DNA of 64,000 bases from Lautropia mirabilis (GTDB lineage Bacteria > Pseudomonadota > Gammaproteobacteria > Burkholderiales > Burkholderiaceae_E), in NCBI RefSeq assembly GCF_900637555.1, contig NZ_LR134378.1:1870001-1934000 (forward strand). The letters are read 5' to 3'. Each line of letters starts with the position of its first letter. Position 1 is the stretch's first letter. Shown here piece after piece: positions 57,632 through 64,000 of this stretch. The notes under the pieces are model-generated. The model did not search any database, had not been told where the DNA came from, and saw only the letters and a list, made by a program, of their open reading frames with translations. The position numbers and the translations under genes are program-made.

Positions 57632-58966
57632 CTACCGATGAGCCGCCACCAGCGCCGCACTGCCCAGGCCACCCACACCAGCGATGCAGGCCAGACCTAG
57701 CCGTGGATGGCGGGGCATGGCGGTAGCCTCCGTGCCCGGCATGTCTGGACGGACCGGATGAGGTGCAGTGGATGGTTCCGCCGGAATCTCTGAGCTCTTT
57801 GGCCTCTCTGGAATGGCCGAGGTTGTCGAGGCAGCGCATGGGGCATGGGGGGCATGCAGTCGGGCCAGCAGCTCCACCAGCGCAATGGCGCCCGAGGCGC
57901 CGATGGGGTGGCCGCGCGCCAGTCCGCCGCCCCAGGCGTTGACGCGCGCAGGATCCAGCCCTTTGCCGTGCAGGGCCTGCTGGAAGGCCAGACCCTGCAC
58001 GGCAAAGGCGTCATGCAGCTCGACGGCGTGCAGGACATGCAGGTCCAGCTGCTGCCGCTGCATCAGGGCCTCCGTGGCGGCCAGCGCGCCGGTCAGCGGG
58101 TTGTCAGGATCGGCGCCCAGGCTGAGCCCGCCCAGCCAGTGGGCGGCGGGCGCGATGCCATGCCGGGCGCAGAATTCTGCCGAGGCCATGAGCACGAGTG
58201 CGGCACCATCGGCCTGCGGGGAGATGGCCAGACGGCTGAGAGCGCAGTCCGGGTCCGATGCATCGGGGCTGTGGGTATCGGTTGGTGCGCGTGCCGCCAC
58301 CGGCATCCGCGATGCCTGGCGCTCGCTCAGCAGCCGGGGATAGGCATCGTGCAACAGACCTTCCAGGGGCAGGATGGCGGATGGCGTGCAGGCGGAGCGT
58401 GCCGCCATGGCACGGACGGCGCGGGCGTGGCTGTCGCGGGCGTATGCATCCTGCTGGTGGCGCGTGAATCCGTGGCGGGCCGCGTAGTCGGCAGCGGCCT
58501 GCAGTGGATCGGGATCACGTGCCGGCCACGGGGTGAAGGCGGGGCGTTCGTAGGGAATGGCGGCCTGGGTGGCGTCCATGGGCCGGTGCTGGCGGATGGG
58601 GGATCGGGTCCAGGCTTCGGCACCACCGGCAATGACGACGTCGGACTGACCCGACAGGATGCGCGCCGCTGCCAGGTTGATCGCGTCCAGCCCCGAGCAG
58701 CACTGGGTGTCCACCGAGAAGGTGGCGCAGCGTTGTGGCAGGCCGGCTGCCAGCGCCGTCATGCGTGCAGGGTTGCCGCCGGCCCCCAGTGCATTGCCCA
58801 GGATCAGGGTGTCCACCGCCTCCGGCGGCAGCCCGACTGTTTGCAGCAGATGCAGCACCAGGGGGGCGGCCAGCGTGTGTGGTGTGTGATGACGCAGCGC
58901 GCCATGACGCGGCGCGACCGGGGTGCGGCCCCCGGCAAGGAGCGGAACGGGCAGAGGGGACAGCAT
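57632..58966 (-). CDS. Divergent thiolase (YhfS-like) in the bioY operon
   Basis: The 444-residue protein has the thiolase fold with the nucleophile Cys89 in DTQCCSGLDAI, the base His353 in ARGHPIGASGA, and a second cysteine at Cys427 (LACIAGVGGLG). The usual NEAF motif is replaced by ELHDAFA, with His318 where Asn normally helps form the oxyanion hole. A Pro/Ala/Ser/Thr-rich stretch of about 48 residues (373-420) interrupts the C-terminal domain. The ATG at 58966 shares a base with the ligase stop (TGATG). In B. subtilis the homologue YhfS is in the bioY operon; its function there is not established. A role in a biotin-linked acyl-CoA path is a hypothesis. Confidence 0.8.
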   Translation of the reverse strand: MLSPLPVPLLAGGRTPVAPRHGALRHHTPHTLAAPLVLHLLQTVGLPPEAVDTLILGNALGAGGNPARMTALAAGLPQRCATFSVDTQCCSGLDAINLAAARILSGQSDVVIAGGAEAWTRSPIRQHRPMDATQAAIPYERPAFTPWPARDPDPLQAAADYAARHGFTRHQQDAYARDSHARAVRAMAARSACTPSAILPLEGLLHDAYPRLLSERQASRMPVAARAPTDTHSPDASDPDCALSRLAISPQADGAALVLMASAEFCARHGIAPAAHWLGGLSLGADPDNPLTGALAATEALMQRQQLDLHVLHAVELHDAFAVQGLAFQQALHGKGLDPARVNAWGGGLARGHPIGASGAIALVELLARLHAPHAPCAASTTSAIPERPKSSEIPAEPSTAPHPVRPDMPGTEATAMPRHPRLGLACIAGVGGLGSAALVAAHR

Positions 58967-60690
58967 CAGGGGCGAATCCGGGTGGCGCCCTCCAGCGCAT
59001 GGCGGATGGCGGTCAGATCGGTCTTTCCGCTGGCGGTCATTGGCCAGTCGCCTTGCCAGCGCCACCAGTGGCGGGGCACCTTGTAGGACTCCAGCGCCTG
59101 ATGGCACCAGGCCACCAGGTCGGCGGGAGCAGCCGTCAAGGGCACGAGTGCCGGTGCTTCGACATCGGCGCTGCCGGTCATGGCGGGGGTCTGGTTGCCG
59201 TCATCGGATGGACGCATCAGTACTGCATGCACCACCTGACCGCGCTGCGGATCAGGCAGGCCCAGCACGGCGGCCTGGGAGATGTCCGGATGGGCCATCA
59301 GACGGGCCTCGACCTCTTCGGGGAACAGGTTCCGGGCCTGGGTGACGATCATGCGATTCTCGCGCCCCACCAGATACAGGTTGCCCTGGGCATCCTGCCA
59401 CCCGATGTCGCGCACGGTCAGCCATTCGCCCACGCGGCGGGCTGCCGTGGCGTCCTGGCCATTCACGTAGTCGATGAACAGCATGGGGCTGCGGATCCAG
59501 ATGAGGCCGGGCTGAGGGCGGGTTGGGGGATCGGCGTGGTCCTCCTGCGTGGGGGGCGATGCCTTGTCGGAGGGGGCGGACGAGGTGGGGAACGAAGCAG
59601 GCGATGGGGTGGAAGATGAGGGAAAACCGGCGGGTGACGAGAAGGGCGAAACCTGGAGCGAAACGGTGGCTGGAGCTGCGGGTGATGGGAGTGGCGTGGA
59701 ACCGCCTGTTCCATGGAAGCCGTTGCCGGGGTCGGATGCCGGGGGCAGCGTCTCGGCCGCTCCGATGTGGACCTGCACGTTGCCGAAGGGGCGGCCGACC
59801 GCCTGGGGCGGGGCGTCGGGTGTGGCCTGCATCCAGCTTACGTAGCTGGTTTCCGAGGCGCCATAGAAGGTGATGATGCGTGCCTGTGGAAACAGTGCCT
59901 GAAGCGGCGCGGTGTTCTCGTGGGCCCAGCGTGCGCCGCTGATCAGCAGCAGCTTCAGCTGCGGGATGGGACCGATCCGACGCCGGCGTGCGGCCGTCAG
60001 CAGCATCAGCAGCTGGCTGGGCACGCTGACCATGACCGGGGAGCTGCCGTCGGCCAGCGTGGTCAGGGTTCGGCCGGCCGAGAAGCGGCTCTGCAGCGAG
60101 GTGCCGCCACCGCTCCAGAGTCCCAGCAGTGCGCCGAACAGGAAGAGCGAGTGCGACATCCGCCCTGGGGCCAGCACGCGGCCGCCGGCCACCGGGCCGA
60201 AGGTCTGCAGGGTGATGCGGAAGGTCTCTGCCCATGAGAGATGGTGACGCCGGAAACCCTTGGGCAGGCCCGTGCTGCCGGAGGTGAAGCCGATGTAGAA
60301 GGGCGTTTCCGGCGTGGGGGGCGGGCTGGGGGCCGGGGACGGGTCGCCCATGTCGCGCAGCGCCGCTTCCATGCGGGCATGAACCTCGGTGGGCCAGTCC
60401 GGGTCGGCCACGGCCGCACATCGCCCGCTGCGGATGACGGCCAGGAAATCGATCAGCAGCGCCAGCGGATCGGCGGTGCTGGTGAGCAGCACGTTGCTGC
60501 CGAGGGAGCGGCCGGTGGGTGCCGCGCCCCGTTCTTCGACGGCCTTCAGGAGCTGGCCGAAATCCAGCTGCCGGGCATGGCTGCCATGGGCATCCTGGAT
60601 GATGGCTGGCCGATCGGGGTGTTCATGGGCCCAGCGCAGCAGCGGGCCATGGACCAGATCGGCGGGATCGGCAGATCGGATCGCGTTCAA
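58966..60690 (-). CDS. Acyl-CoA/AMP ligase family enzyme (YhfT-like) with an inserted low-complexity region
   Basis: The protein (574 aa) is an ANL-superfamily adenylating enzyme: P-loop TSGSTGLPKG (residues 136-145), YGASE (276-280), the hinge-region Asp428 in VRDIGWQDAQG and the C-terminal lysine Lys556 in SGKTDLT. Between YGASE and Asp428, residues about 314-393 are Pro/Ser/Thr-rich and have no counterpart in the family. I assign a TTG start at 60690, where TTGA overlaps the bioY stop; no ATG is plausible nearby, and this start is uncertain. It overlaps the thiolase by TGATG. The set matches B. subtilis yhfU-yhfT-yhfS, with YhfT annotated as a long-chain acyl-CoA ligase. The substrate is unknown; pimelate or a fatty acid is possible. 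Confidence 0.8.
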   Translation of the reverse strand: MNAIRSADPADLVHGPLLRWAHEHPDRPAIIQDAHGSHARQLDFGQLLKAVEERGAAPTGRSLGSNVLLTSTADPLALLIDFLAVIRSGRCAAVADPDWPTEVHARMEAALRDMGDPSPAPSPPPTPETPFYIGFTSGSTGLPKGFRRHHLSWAETFRITLQTFGPVAGGRVLAPGRMSHSLFLFGALLGLWSGGGTSLQSRFSAGRTLTTLADGSSPVMVSVPSQLLMLLTAARRRRIGPIPQLKLLLISGARWAHENTAPLQALFPQARIITFYGASETSYVSWMQATPDAPPQAVGRPFGNVQVHIGAAETLPPASDPGNGFHGTGGSTPLPSPAAPATVSLQVSPFSSPAGFPSSSTPSPASFPTSSAPSDKASPPTQEDHADPPTRPQPGLIWIRSPMLFIDYVNGQDATAARRVGEWLTVRDIGWQDAQGNLYLVGRENRMIVTQARNLFPEEVEARLMAHPDISQAAVLGLPDPQRGQVVHAVLMRPSDDGNQTPAMTGSADVEAPALVPLTAAPADLVAWCHQALESYKVPRHWWRWQGDWPMTASGKTDLTAIRHALEGATRIRP

Positions 60691-61289
60691 CGGCGCGTGG
60701 CGCGGCTCTCGCTGCCCGGGAAGGGCCAGTCGGGCAGGGCGCGCGCGACGGTGTGGACGATGAGGGCGCACAGCAGCGCCTTGATGGTGTCGCCGGGCAC
60801 GAAGGCCAGATCCGCCAGGAAGGCCTTGTCAAAGGTCATGTCGGCAAAGATGGTCAGACCGATGATGCCCGTGAGGTGCAGGAACACGAGCCCGCCAGCC
60901 ATGGAGGCGATGAAGGCGTTGGCGGCCAACCGTCCGGCGGTATGGGCGCGCGGCAGCATCAGCATCATCCAGCCGGTGACGAAGGCCGCTGGCGCGAAGC
61001 CGTACAGGTAGCCGGCTGACGGCGACATGAACGGGGCCAGACCGCCCCGGCCTCCGGAGAGCACCGGCAGGCCCAGGGCCGCGGCCACGACGAACAACAG
61101 TACCGCCTGAAAGCCGCGCCAGGGGCCCAGCAGGCAGCCGGCCAGCATGATGCCCAGCGTCTGGGCGGTGATGGGAACGCCGAAAGGCAGGTCGATCTTG
61201 GGAATGAGGCCCAGTACCGCCAGCAGGGCGGCAAAGAGGGCGACTTGCGAGATGTGCTGCGCACTCTGGCGCGACAGGGTTCGGTCCAT
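60687..61289 (-). CDS. bioY: Biotin ECF-transporter substrate-binding component BioY
   Basis: BioY is the membrane S component that captures biotin, working with the ECF module BioM/BioN or alone. The 200-residue protein has about six membrane helices and the family motifs TAQTLGIMLAGCLLGPWRGF, LPVLSGGRGGLAPFMSPSAG and GYLYGFAPAAFVTGW. It ends in TTGA-overlap with the ligase gene, so it is the first gene of a three-gene operon. Upstream (61388-61415) lies a direct repeat. A BioN-like T component ends the window at 63615-64000 on the same strand. Confidence 0.92.
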   Translation of the reverse strand: MDRTLSRQSAQHISQVALFAALLAVLGLIPKIDLPFGVPITAQTLGIMLAGCLLGPWRGFQAVLLFVVAAALGLPVLSGGRGGLAPFMSPSAGYLYGFAPAAFVTGWMMLMLPRAHTAGRLAANAFIASMAGGLVFLHLTGIIGLTIFADMTFDKAFLADLAFVPGDTIKALLCALIVHTVARALPDWPFPGSESRATRR

Positions 61290-61415: not shown

Positions 61416-61724
61416 CGCCGGGAATCAGGGTTTTGCCGGATGCGGACCTGTGAGGGCTCCTTCATGCCTGCGGGCGATTCCGTTGTCGAGCTTTCCGGGT
61501 ACGCCTGCTGTGCTGCCTGTCGACAACGGTCCACTCAACAGCCAGCCCCTCCGACTGACCCGGCGTTGCCTGTATCGACAGGCCCCGTGCGAGGGACGAC
61601 CGATGGTATGAGTGCGACATGGACAGGAGCGGCACGAACTCTCGACTACCATGGGTATAGAATCAGATTGTCAATTAATGTCATAGAACGGGCGGCAACG
61701 GATACCCCGCATTCAGGAGCGATC

Positions 61725-63089
61725 ATGTTGAGCACATTGATGCAACAGATGGGCATCCATCCATTCTGGGCACAGCTGCTGCTGTTGCTGGTCATCATCT
61801 ACTTCGGCATCCGCTTCGGTGGGGTGGCACTGGGCCTGCTGGGCGGGCTGGGCATCACGCTGCTGGCTTTCCTGTTCGGCGTGGCGCCCGGCAAGCCGCC
61901 CATTGATGTCATCCTGATCATCATCGCGGTGGTGACCACCTCGGCCACGCTGGAAGCCACCGGGGCGCTGAACCTGATCGTGCGGCTGGCCGAGAAGCTG
62001 CTGCGCCGCCATCCCGAGCGGGTCACCTACCTGGCGCCGATCTGCACCTTTTCGCTGACGATGCTGGTGGGGACTGGGCATGCGGTCTATCCGCTCCTGC
62101 CGGTGATCTATGACGTGGCGTATTCCAAGGGGATTCGTCCCGAGCGCCCGATGGCGATTGCGTCGGTTGCCAGCCAGATGGGCATCACGGCCAGCCCGGT
62201 GTCCGCCGCTCTGGCCACGGTGGTGGCCATCGCTGCCACCAACCATGTGGCCATTTCGGTGCCGCAGGTGCTGTGTGTGACCGTGCCTTCATGCATCATC
62301 GGCATGCTGGTGGCGGCCACCTGGAGTCTGAAGCGGGGCAAGGAACTGGCCGACGATCCGGATTTCCAGGCCCGGATGCAGGATCCCAAGATGCGCGAGT
62401 ACATCGAGGGGGGCAGCCATTCGGTGCTGGGCGAGGCCGTGAGTTCGCAGGCGCGCAGTGCGCTGACGATCTTCCTGCTGGGTATCGTGGCCATCGTCTG
62501 CCTGGCTTCGGTGGCGCAGCCGCTGCTGCCGCTGGATGCCAAGGGACAGCCGCTGACGATGGTGCCGGTGATCCAGTTCGTCATGCTGGCGGCCGGCGCG
62601 CTCATCCTGTTCTTCACCGGCGTCAAGCCCAAGGCCATCTCGGATTCCAAGGTCTTCAATGCCGGCATGATCGCGGTGGTGATGATCATGGGTATTGCCT
62701 GGATGAGCGATACCGTCATCTCGGGCAACAAGGGCTACATCACCGACCTGCTCAAGGCCGAGGTGGAACGCCATCCGTGGACCTTCGCCCTGGCCATGTT
62801 CACCTTCTCGGCCTTCCTGAAGTCCCAGGCGGCCACGCTGACGGTGATGCTGCCGCTGGGCTTTGCGCTGGGGCTTTCACCGGCCACGCTGCTGGGATCG
62901 GTGCCGGCCAGCTATGCATACTTCTTCTTCTGCTTCTACCCGAGTGATCTGGCAACGATCAACTTCGACCGTACCGGCACCACGCACATCGGCAAGTACA
63001 TCCTGAACCACAGCTTCATGATGCCTGGCCTGATTGGCGTGGGGGTGGCCACGGTGGTGGCGATGCTGATCGCGCAGGTGGTGGTGTGA
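61725..63089 (+). CDS. Anaerobic C4-dicarboxylate transporter (DcuA/DcuB family)
   Basis: Dcu transporters exchange fumarate, malate or aspartate for succinate, mostly under oxygen limitation. The 454-residue protein has about 10-12 membrane helices and family segments such as ATLEATGALNLIVRLAEKLL, LVGTGHAVYPLLPVIYDVAY, and RPERPMAIASVASQMGITAS. CAGGAGC precedes the ATG at 61725. The upstream bases are AT-rich for this genome (61645-61690), with TATAGAAT and a TGTCA-N5-TGTCA direct repeat at 61670-61684, possibly a regulatory site; I do not see a good FNR palindrome. DcuA versus DcuB cannot be separated by eye. Confidence 0.9.
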   Translation: MLSTLMQQMGIHPFWAQLLLLLVIIYFGIRFGGVALGLLGGLGITLLAFLFGVAPGKPPIDVILIIIAVVTTSATLEATGALNLIVRLAEKLLRRHPERVTYLAPICTFSLTMLVGTGHAVYPLLPVIYDVAYSKGIRPERPMAIASVASQMGITASPVSAALATVVAIAATNHVAISVPQVLCVTVPSCIIGMLVAATWSLKRGKELADDPDFQARMQDPKMREYIEGGSHSVLGEAVSSQARSALTIFLLGIVAIVCLASVAQPLLPLDAKGQPLTMVPVIQFVMLAAGALILFFTGVKPKAISDSKVFNAGMIAVVMIMGIAWMSDTVISGNKGYITDLLKAEVERHPWTFALAMFTFSAFLKSQAATLTVMLPLGFALGLSPATLLGSVPASYAYFFFCFYPSDLATINFDRTGTTHIGKYILNHSFMMPGLIGVGVATVVAMLIAQVVV

Positions 63090-63135: not shown

Positions 63136-63555
63136 TCAGCCCCGCAGTTTCTGCAGGAACGGATTGTGGGCGATTTCCCACAGGAAGCCGTCCGGGTCCG
63201 CGATATAGCCGCTGTAGCCGCCCCAGAACACTTTCTGGGGCGGTTTGATGATGGTGACGCCATGCTCGCGAAAGCGCGCAAAGAGCGCATCGACCTCGGT
63301 GGCGGTGGCCAGGTTGTGAGCCATCGAGAAGCCGGGAAAGCCGCCCGGCATTGTGACAGGGCTGTCATGGCCGGCATCCTTGGCCAGCGCATCACGCTGG
63401 AACAGTGCCAGTATCAGCGCGCCGCCCGTCTGGAAGAACGCAATGTGCTCGTTGCTTTCGGCGCTTTCCTGCCAGCCGAAGACTTCCTGGTAGAAACGGC
63501 GTGATCGGCCAACGTCCGCAACGCCGAGAGTGATGTAGTTGATGTGCTGGTCCAT
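63136..63555 (-). CDS. VOC-family (glyoxalase/bleomycin-resistance-type) protein
   Basis: The 139-residue protein has two beta-alpha-beta-beta-beta modules of the vicinal-oxygen-chelate family: INYITLGVADVGRSRRFYQE at the N-terminus and GYSGYIADPDGFLWEIAHNP at the C-terminus. The metal-binding His4 of MDQH and the late Glu in LWEI may be ligands. The reaction cannot be told; family members isomerise or cleave small molecules, or bind antibiotics. The ATG at 63555 gives MDQHINY. It lies 59 bases downstream of the BioN-like gene on the same strand, so it may be in that transcript. Confidence 0.85.
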   Translation of the reverse strand: MDQHINYITLGVADVGRSRRFYQEVFGWQESAESNEHIAFFQTGGALILALFQRDALAKDAGHDSPVTMPGGFPGFSMAHNLATATEVDALFARFREHGVTIIKPPQKVFWGGYSGYIADPDGFLWEIAHNPFLQKLRG

Positions 63556-63614
63556 GATGAGATCGAACGGGGTCGGGGCGTGGTGGACGGGATCAGCCGT
63601 GGGGGGCGCCGGCT

Positions 63615-64000
63615 TCAGTCCCCCAGTCGCGCAAACAGCGCATCGGCCACGCGGCGGGTGGTCTGCAGCATCTGGATGGTGAGGGGGGCGATGAGGCGCC
63701 AGCCGCCGGGCCGGCCGGTGCGCAGGCGCCAGGCGTCGTCGAGCTTCTTCCATTGCACGAAGAAGTGCTCGATGAAGCGCAGCATCAGGCCCAGCTGCAG
63801 GGCCAGGCGTTCGGGGGACAGGCCCACCAGGCGCAGAGGCTGCAGTAGCCATTCCAGCACGTCCAGCAGCGCGGCGGGACGGGTGGTGACGGTCAGTACA
63901 GCTCCCAGGCTGCAGGTGCAGGCCAGCCGCACGGTGGCGGACCAGGCCAGGTCCGGACGGCCCATCCACAGCTGAAAGAGTGCCACCAGGCCGGCGGCCA
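63615..64000 (-). CDS. bioN: ECF transporter T component, BioN/CbiQ-like (5' end outside window)
   Basis: The frame runs off the right edge; only the last 127 residues and the stop are visible. They contain an AAGLVALFQL helix at the edge, LDVLEWLLQPLRLVGLSPER, LGLMLRFIEHFFVQWKKLDD and the C-terminal coupling segment RTGRPGGWRLIAPLTIQMLQ with TTRRVADALFARLGD. ECF T components link S components such as BioY to ATPases. The match to BioN rather than CbiQ is supported by the nearby bioY gene and size, but the N-terminal half and any adjacent bioM lie outside. The gene name is tentative. Confidence 0.72.
   Translation of the reverse strand, partial: AAGLVALFQLWMGRPDLAWSATVRLACTCSLGAVLTVTTRPAALLDVLEWLLQPLRLVGLSPERLALQLGLMLRFIEHFFVQWKKLDDAWRLRTGRPGGWRLIAPLTIQMLQTTRRVADALFARLGD

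Follow-up and report, generated by a model that had tools for sequence, protein, structure and literature searches.

In this study, we examined a 64,000-nucleotide stretch of the Lautropia mirabilis genome (contig NZ_LR134378.1, positions 1,870,001 to 1,934,000; the window), in which bioY, coding for the biotin S component of an energy-coupling factor (ECF) transporter, is followed by genes for an adenylate-forming ligase of the ANL superfamily and for a thiolase-fold protein. From the sequences of these proteins and their relatives we propose, with a probability of roughly 0.4, that the operon links biotin import with a process in which two enzymes activate and transfer an acyl group, and that the thiolase homologue is not a carbon-carbon thiolase. 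According to this proposal, BioY together with BioN and BioM would import biotin or a close vitamer, the ligase would convert a carboxylic acid first to an acyl-adenylate and then to an acyl-coenzyme A (acyl-CoA), and the thiolase homologue would accept the acyl group at its conserved cysteine before passing it to an acceptor other than the enolate of acetyl-CoA, or to water. The import and activation steps would follow from what is known of the BioY and ligase families, and from its residues we infer that the thiolase homologue acts as an acyltransferase. Because the pair is linked to biotin import and is under biotin control in Firmicutes, our guess is that biotin or a biotin-like vitamer serves as the acid, and that the system is there to scavenge when biotin is scarce.

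The three genes form one operon (Table 1). The TTG start of the ligase gene (position 60690), a start inferred by position, overlaps the bioY stop codon in a TTGA junction with four shared bases, and the ATG of the thiolase homologue (position 58966) starts on the final base of the ligase stop codon (TGATG). The ligase gene of Comamonas also begins inside the overlap with the bioY stop codon, there with an ATG. A previous reading of the stretch, made from its letters and open reading frames and referred to here as the sequence-only reading, had described three minus-strand genes with these two junctions, which the coordinates and Pfam matches confirm. Its proposal that the three proteins are made together fits the arrangement, the overlaps being present and the linkage conserved; bioN at the window edge and bioM beyond it were absent from its account.

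The linkage of the ligase–thiolase pair to biotin-import genes is not due to chance, and the evidence for this is strong. An alignment of four ligase sequences was scanned against 84,980 species genomes, which gave 106 relatives; the best 80 were kept and yielded 79 loci. These loci were fetched by the ligase alone, and the other genes were then sought by tblastn. The sequence-only reading had suggested a search for bioY beside both enzyme families, and such a linkage is indeed conserved, with bioY in 75 and the thiolase in 78 of the 79 loci, bioN in 71 and bioM in 70, most commonly in the order bioM-bioN-bioY-ligase-thiolase. By rough automatic start calls, the end of bioY overlaps the ligase gene or lies within 100 bases of it in 72 of the 75 loci (an overlap in 24), and ligase and thiolase genes overlap in 41 of 78. 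As for the four loci without bioY, L087 begins within the ligase gene, and no bioY was found in the sequence covered for L073 (Azospirillum), L074 (Robbsia) and L090. Most of the hosts are Comamonadaceae, the others being Herbaspirillum, Robbsia, Candidimonas, Lautropia and a few alphaproteobacteria. The pair was also seen on alphaproteobacterial plasmids, as bioMNY-ligase-thiolase in Azospirillum lipoferum, as bioY-ligase-thiolase in Paracoccus, and in Pseudosulfitobacter and Marivivens as a ligase–thiolase unit facing a bioM-bioN-bioY-nitroreductase operon. When 250 genomes of the order were surveyed (ligase hits accepted at E 1e-30 or better, with scoring of five candidates in each genome), BioY was found in 18, and the ligase in five of these 18 versus none of the 232 genomes without BioY (Fisher p about 1e-6, a figure that ignores relatedness). 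Genome G184, under the E 1e-30 threshold, raises the count of BioY genomes with the ligase pair to six of 18.

The thiolase homologue retains one part of the thiolase active site and has lost another. In the Z. ramigera thiolase, Cys378 is the proton-abstracting base, and the enolate is stabilised in an oxyanion hole made up of Asn316 and His348 (PMC3406046). Aligned to E. coli AtoB and FadA, the window protein keeps Cys89 and His353, has Ala429 in place of the CxG cysteine and reads HDAF in place of NEAF. Against the same two enzymes, the family as a whole keeps the nucleophilic cysteine and the GHP histidine, lacks the CxG cysteine (AtoB Cys379) and mostly lacks the NEAF asparagine. An active-site alignment of 77 rows was made from the window, genome G064 and 75 of the 78 loci, three thiolases shorter than 300 residues being dropped. 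The nucleophile (the cysteine of CxS) is present in all 77 rows and the GHP histidine in 76, and the base position holds alanine in 74 rows and proline, a gap and cysteine in one row each. The sole cysteine at this position and the sole missing GHP histidine both belong to L055, whose thiolase frame is broken. Our reading is that the acyl-transfer half-reaction would be retained in the thiolase homologue and the Claisen half lost. The name thiolase appears doubtful across the clade, in which the base cysteine is replaced, and as a function for the window protein, which the sequence-only reading had called a divergent thiolase, it is doubtful since base cysteine and NEAF asparagine are both replaced.

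We compared 28 chosen clade members, from beta- and alphaproteobacteria and S. aureus, with 18 ordinary thiolases from three holder genomes (holders being genomes that carry the pair), L090 and E. coli; the base cysteine of CxG is alanine, proline or glycine in 28 of 28 clade members and cysteine in 18 of 18 ordinary thiolases, and a tree of the 46 sequences separates the two sets by a 100/99 branch. The replacement varies with lineage, being alanine in the betaproteobacterial and most alphaproteobacterial members shown, proline in G064 and G184, and glycine in Azospirillum lipoferum, Rhizobium IE4771 and S. aureus. The NEAF asparagine position likewise holds His, Met or Asn by lineage, with His in the betaproteobacterial members and the window and Met in G064, G184 and most alphaproteobacterial members. 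The best NCBIfam equivalog for the window protein is PRK06690, at 166 bits below its cut-off of 498. Its AlphaFold model (predicted local distance difference test score, pLDDT, 88.6) shows an ordinary thiolase fold, and thiolases make up all 50 of the best PDB matches listed; they include 2wku, the Z. ramigera N316H mutant, which carries the same change as the replacement of the NEAF asparagine by histidine in the window. A Cys-less biotin-linked thiolase was not found in the open-licence literature, which is a weak negative. As a separate observation, a low-complexity insertion rich in Pro, Ser, Thr and Ala lies near the C terminus of the window protein (about 57709-57844) and is shorter or absent in aligned relatives.

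Two known active-site arrangements were considered for this clade. A Cys-His-His triad like that of KAS I and II would fit the betaproteobacterial members only, the others having Met or Asn. SCP2-type thiolases lack the CxG cysteine, and the cysteine of their HDCF motif is thought to serve instead (PMC7682436). The window protein resembles them in the absence of the CxG cysteine and in the His-Asp motif replacing NEAF; however, its HDAF motif offers no cysteine for the base role, and residue 320, the position of the HDCF cysteine, is alanine in 76 of the 77 rows and serine in one, by which an SCP2-type thiolase is ruled out.

The ligase retains the residues expected of an adenylate-forming enzyme. 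The A5 glutamate (Glu280) and the C-terminal catalytic lysine (Lys471, both in Comamonas numbering) are present in 27 of 27 ligase rows, as is a family signature of Arg148, Ser152 and Trp153 (same numbering), which is absent from E. coli MenE, CaiC and FadD. The best NCBIfam match of the window ligase, NF005797/PRK07638, scores 244 bits, below the cut-off of 518. Its structure model has a pLDDT of 88.8, with MenE and the amide synthetase McbA nearest among the listed PDB matches. For both enzymes, the models and their PDB neighbours confirm the predicted folds, not the substrates. The ligase, too, carries a low-complexity Pro/Ser/Thr/Ala-rich insertion, between the A5 and A8 regions (window about 59515-59718), which is shorter or absent in aligned relatives.

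Several observations weigh against the reading proposed here. A thiolase homologue without the base might retain slow activity, rely on a different base, or carry out a condensation of malonyl groups. NEAF is kept in the S. aureus, Azospirillum lipoferum and Rhizobium IE4771 members, and only the loss of the cysteine is common to the clade. No BioY stands next to the Rhizobium IE4771 member, so that the link of the Cys-less clade to biotin is not a strict one, and because in 12 of the order's 18 BioY genomes no pair was seen next to BioY (some contigs end early), the pair must be regarded as optional. An exact BirA-type half-site, TTGTNAAC or GTTNACAA, occurs in none of 75 upstream regions, which leaves degenerate sites and other regulators possible; no palindrome of the kinds counted is common to more than five of these regions, and the plain word CTAGAATC is present in 19. 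Finally, BioD, found in 203 of the 250 genomes of the order, occurs in four of the 18 BioY genomes, namely one of six with the pair and three of 12 without it. The lack of BioD thus goes with BioY as such, and auxotrophy therefore does not single out the pair.

The trio of bioY, ligase and thiolase genes is of a known kind. For B. subtilis, we take YhfT to be the ligase and YhfS the thiolase homologue. It has been reported that, in the presence of biotin and ATP, BirA occupies the operator of yhfUTS, and that it controls bioWAFDBI and yhfUTS together. This places BioY and both partner genes, the gene content of the window trio, in one BirA-controlled operon of B. subtilis, and bears out the mention of yhfUTS in the sequence-only reading as part of the biotin regulon (PMC4016012). 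In S. aureus, a yhfS-yhfT reporter is under BirA repression, the homologues being a ligase (YhfT) and a thiolase homologue (YhfS) (PMC6391492). The same trio stands in one putative operon of Sinorhizobium meliloti, where NolR represses the BioY gene (there named bioB) together with SMc00965 (AMP-binding) and SMc00966 (thiolase family), the system being known here from expression data alone (PMC12445080). With the trio published for two species and a BirA-controlled pair for a third, the description of the window operon as the best candidate for an undescribed system was too strong; in the published passages YhfT and YhfS are only putative homologues.

The window system nevertheless departs from the known trio because of its doubly changed thiolase, its dedicated importer genes and the nitroreductase that frequently accompanies its relatives, none of which we found described in the passages of these sources that bear on the operon. 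Compared with yhfUTS, to which it is likened by published gene content, the window trio has dedicated bioN and bioM genes in its vicinity and shows no BirA-type half-site, and its genome lacks BioF, BioA and BioD at the cut-off. The S. aureus pair, which from gene order is apparently vraA-vraB, has a thiolase of the same clade that also lacks the CxG cysteine (Gly), and its best matches are the same models, PRK07638 and PRK06690, also below the cut-off (271 and 395 bits); it differs in that NEAF is kept and the pair is not beside bioY in the record examined, where two small genes come next. In a wider form, which we consider distinctly unlikely, our proposal would make the biotin-regulon thiolase an unrecognised clade of CoA-dependent cysteine acyltransferases, which with the ligase, and sometimes a flavin nitroreductase as third partner, would activate imported biotin or a vitamer via CoA and hand the acyl group to an acceptor for trapping, salvage or carrier loading, separate from BirA and de novo synthesis. 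What the present analysis contributes is an argument against a pimelate-supply role in most holders tested and the naming, from residues, of the half of the thiolase reaction that would be retained; if it is true that the pair handles biotin or vitamers, this would be a new step in bacterial life on scarce biotin.

A nitroreductase-family gene (PF00881) lies 3' of the thiolase gene in 59 of the 79 loci, on the same strand as the thiolase gene in 21 and on the opposite strand in 38, within 350 bases in 48 of the 59 and at most 3,030 bases away. Of the 20 loci without it, eight have less than 1 kb or no 3' sequence, and 12 have at least 2.6 kb and yet none. The gene is found beside the pair in L073, L074 and L090 despite the absence of bioY, and in three of the alphaproteobacterial plasmids viewed. 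The window operon has no adjacent nitroreductase gene, its next gene coding for an RHS-repeat protein. No paper on BioY with a nitroreductase was found in the open-licence literature, again a weak negative.

Three other explanations were weighed, and we rank lipid economy first, remodelling of biotin catabolites second and pimelate supply last. In the first, acetyl-CoA carboxylase would be short of biotin, the ligase would activate exogenous fatty acids and the thiolase homologue would route the acyl groups, thereby sparing malonyl-CoA. It would be consistent with the biotin and BirA control of the pair and importer in Firmicutes (PMC4016012, PMC6391492), with the description of vraA and vraB, apparently the same pair in S. 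aureus and S. epidermidis, as fatty acid genes in the passages concerned (PMC11730646, PMC10620731), with the second-best NCBIfam match of the window ligase, a long-chain fatty acid ligase subfamily (136 bits), and with the persistence of the pair in genomes missing BioB and BioF. However, the tie to bioY is closer than a general lipid role requires, and the proximity of the ligase model to MenE and McbA among the listed PDB matches also speaks, weakly, against it. In addition, the 25 commonest neighbour clusters beyond bioM, bioN, bioY, ligase, thiolase and nitroreductase were judged by eye to be antisense shadows or lineage neighbours, with no lipid gene recognised among them. We regard lipid economy as unlikely.

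In the second explanation, the ligase would activate bisnorbiotin-like acids, the thiolase homologue would rebuild the valeryl chain by decarboxylative or ordinary condensation, and the nitroreductase would be the reductase. The three enzyme types do adjoin a biotin importer, the histidine at the NEAF position would give the betaproteobacterial members a Cys-His-His arrangement, and the window genome has two matches each to the acyl-CoA dehydrogenase and enoyl-CoA hydratase families. Nevertheless, with the base cysteine absent from every one of the 28 clade members compared, Met or Asn instead of His in the alphaproteobacterial members shown, and the nitroreductase missing beside the window operon, such remodelling seems quite improbable.

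Whether the pair could supply pimelate, as the sequence-only reading had offered among its examples, depends on the rest of the biotin pathway. The BioZ and BioW routes make the pimeloyl moiety and feed BioF, BioA and BioD. They likewise tie acyl activation or a condensing-enzyme fold to biotin genes, but the window genome lacks the three enzymes that they feed at the cut-off. The holder census covered 51 genomes carrying the pair (49 of the 79 loci and three genomes submitted), with curated cut-offs for BioB, BioF, BioA and BioD. BioF was scored in all 51 (31 and then 20 more), BioA in the first 31 and BioD in 25 of the holders, G254 and the 20 later genomes not being among them; the BioD, BioA and first 31 BioF genomes are a biased sample, 18 having been picked for lacking BioB over the cut-off. 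Some holders are incomplete metagenome assemblies, but completeness is 99% or more for the window genome (G000), G009 and G064.

BioB exceeds its cut-off in 33 of the 51 holders and does not in 18. BioF does so in only six (two of the 31 and four of the 20), leaving 45 without it, the window genome included; seven further holders have weaker matches (best 262-353 bits versus a cut-off of 426), which may be divergent BioF or other enzymes of the family. BioD is over the cut-off in one of 25 holders and BioA in two of 31, all 31 having lower-scoring aminotransferases (up to 372 bits versus 405). The window genome has BioB only, encoded by a stand-alone gene outside the window (C1:1642936-1643847) with no other biotin gene around it by eye; BioF, BioA and BioD do not reach the curated cut-offs, although lower-scoring aminotransferases exist. 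BioB is present without BioF over the cut-off in 27 of 33 genomes, which suggests that such holders use external dethiobiotin. Most of the holders tested are therefore probably unable to synthesise biotin from pimelate, so that the pair must have some other task there. A role of the pair in forming or activating a pimeloyl group for use by BioF is thus highly improbable and is rejected for most holders tested, in spite of the joint BirA control of bioWAFDBI and yhfUTS in the B. subtilis account (PMC4016012), the six holders with BioF, the full set of BioB, BioF, BioA and BioD in Robbsia (G284), and the Comamonas avium operon (L066), in which bioB heads bioY-ligase-thiolase, for it is opposed by the 45 holders without BioF, the 18 without BioB and a thiolase homologue that lacks the condensation base. 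Delftia acidovorans (G254) has BioB, BioF and BioA. For the window genome, the idea of pimelate activation for biotin synthesis is unsupported.

Table 1. The operon, the importer genes and the genes between them (window coordinates unless stated otherwise)
Feature	Position	Strand	Basis and remarks
bioY, biotin S component of ECF transporter	60687..61289	-	ATG start, 200 residues; PF02632, 122 bits (cut-off 25)
ANL adenylate-forming ligase, YhfT-like	58966..60690	-	TTG start, 574 residues; PF00501 (AMP-binding, 95 bits) and PF13193 (AMP-binding_C, 46 bits)
Thiolase-fold protein, YhfS-like	57632..58966	-	444 residues; PF00108 (Thiolase_N, 110 bits) and PF02803 (Thiolase_C, 58 bits)
bioN, ECF T component	63615..64000	-	Runs off the window; PF02361 on the part inside it
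bioM	Genome C1:1934201-1935007		Just outside the window past bioN; by similarity to relatives, without a domain scan of its own
DcuA/DcuB-type dicarboxylate transporter	61440-63089	+	Between bioN and bioY
Glyoxalase-family gene	63136-63999	-	Between bioN and bioY

The window genome is a single contig of 3,172,010 bases in which one BioY was detected. With BioY (PF02632), bioN (PF02361) and bioM, the last by similarity, the complete BioMNY gene set is found nearby, bioN and bioM being encoded 2-4 kb upstream of bioY. In Comamonas, Delftia and most relatives bioM, bioN and bioY are contiguous, whereas the transporter and glyoxalase-family genes intervene in the window; in the same-genus genome G009, bioM, bioN, bioY, ligase and thiolase are clustered on one strand. 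An Rfam scan of the window gave no match at gathering scores. Near bioM, a 4'-phosphopantetheinyl transferase-like gene and nonribosomal peptide synthetase sequence were noticed by eye, both just past the window (L014 8572-16005) and in the same-genus genome (L010 11856-13893). In G064 an ATPase-like gene, also recognised by eye, lies between bioY and the ligase gene (L013 4969-6120). A Rhizobium etli plasmid carries a thioesterase-ligase-thiolase arrangement of the Cys-less clade with no bioY nearby (L138 4037-7152), and many further Rhizobium plasmids list similar pairs.

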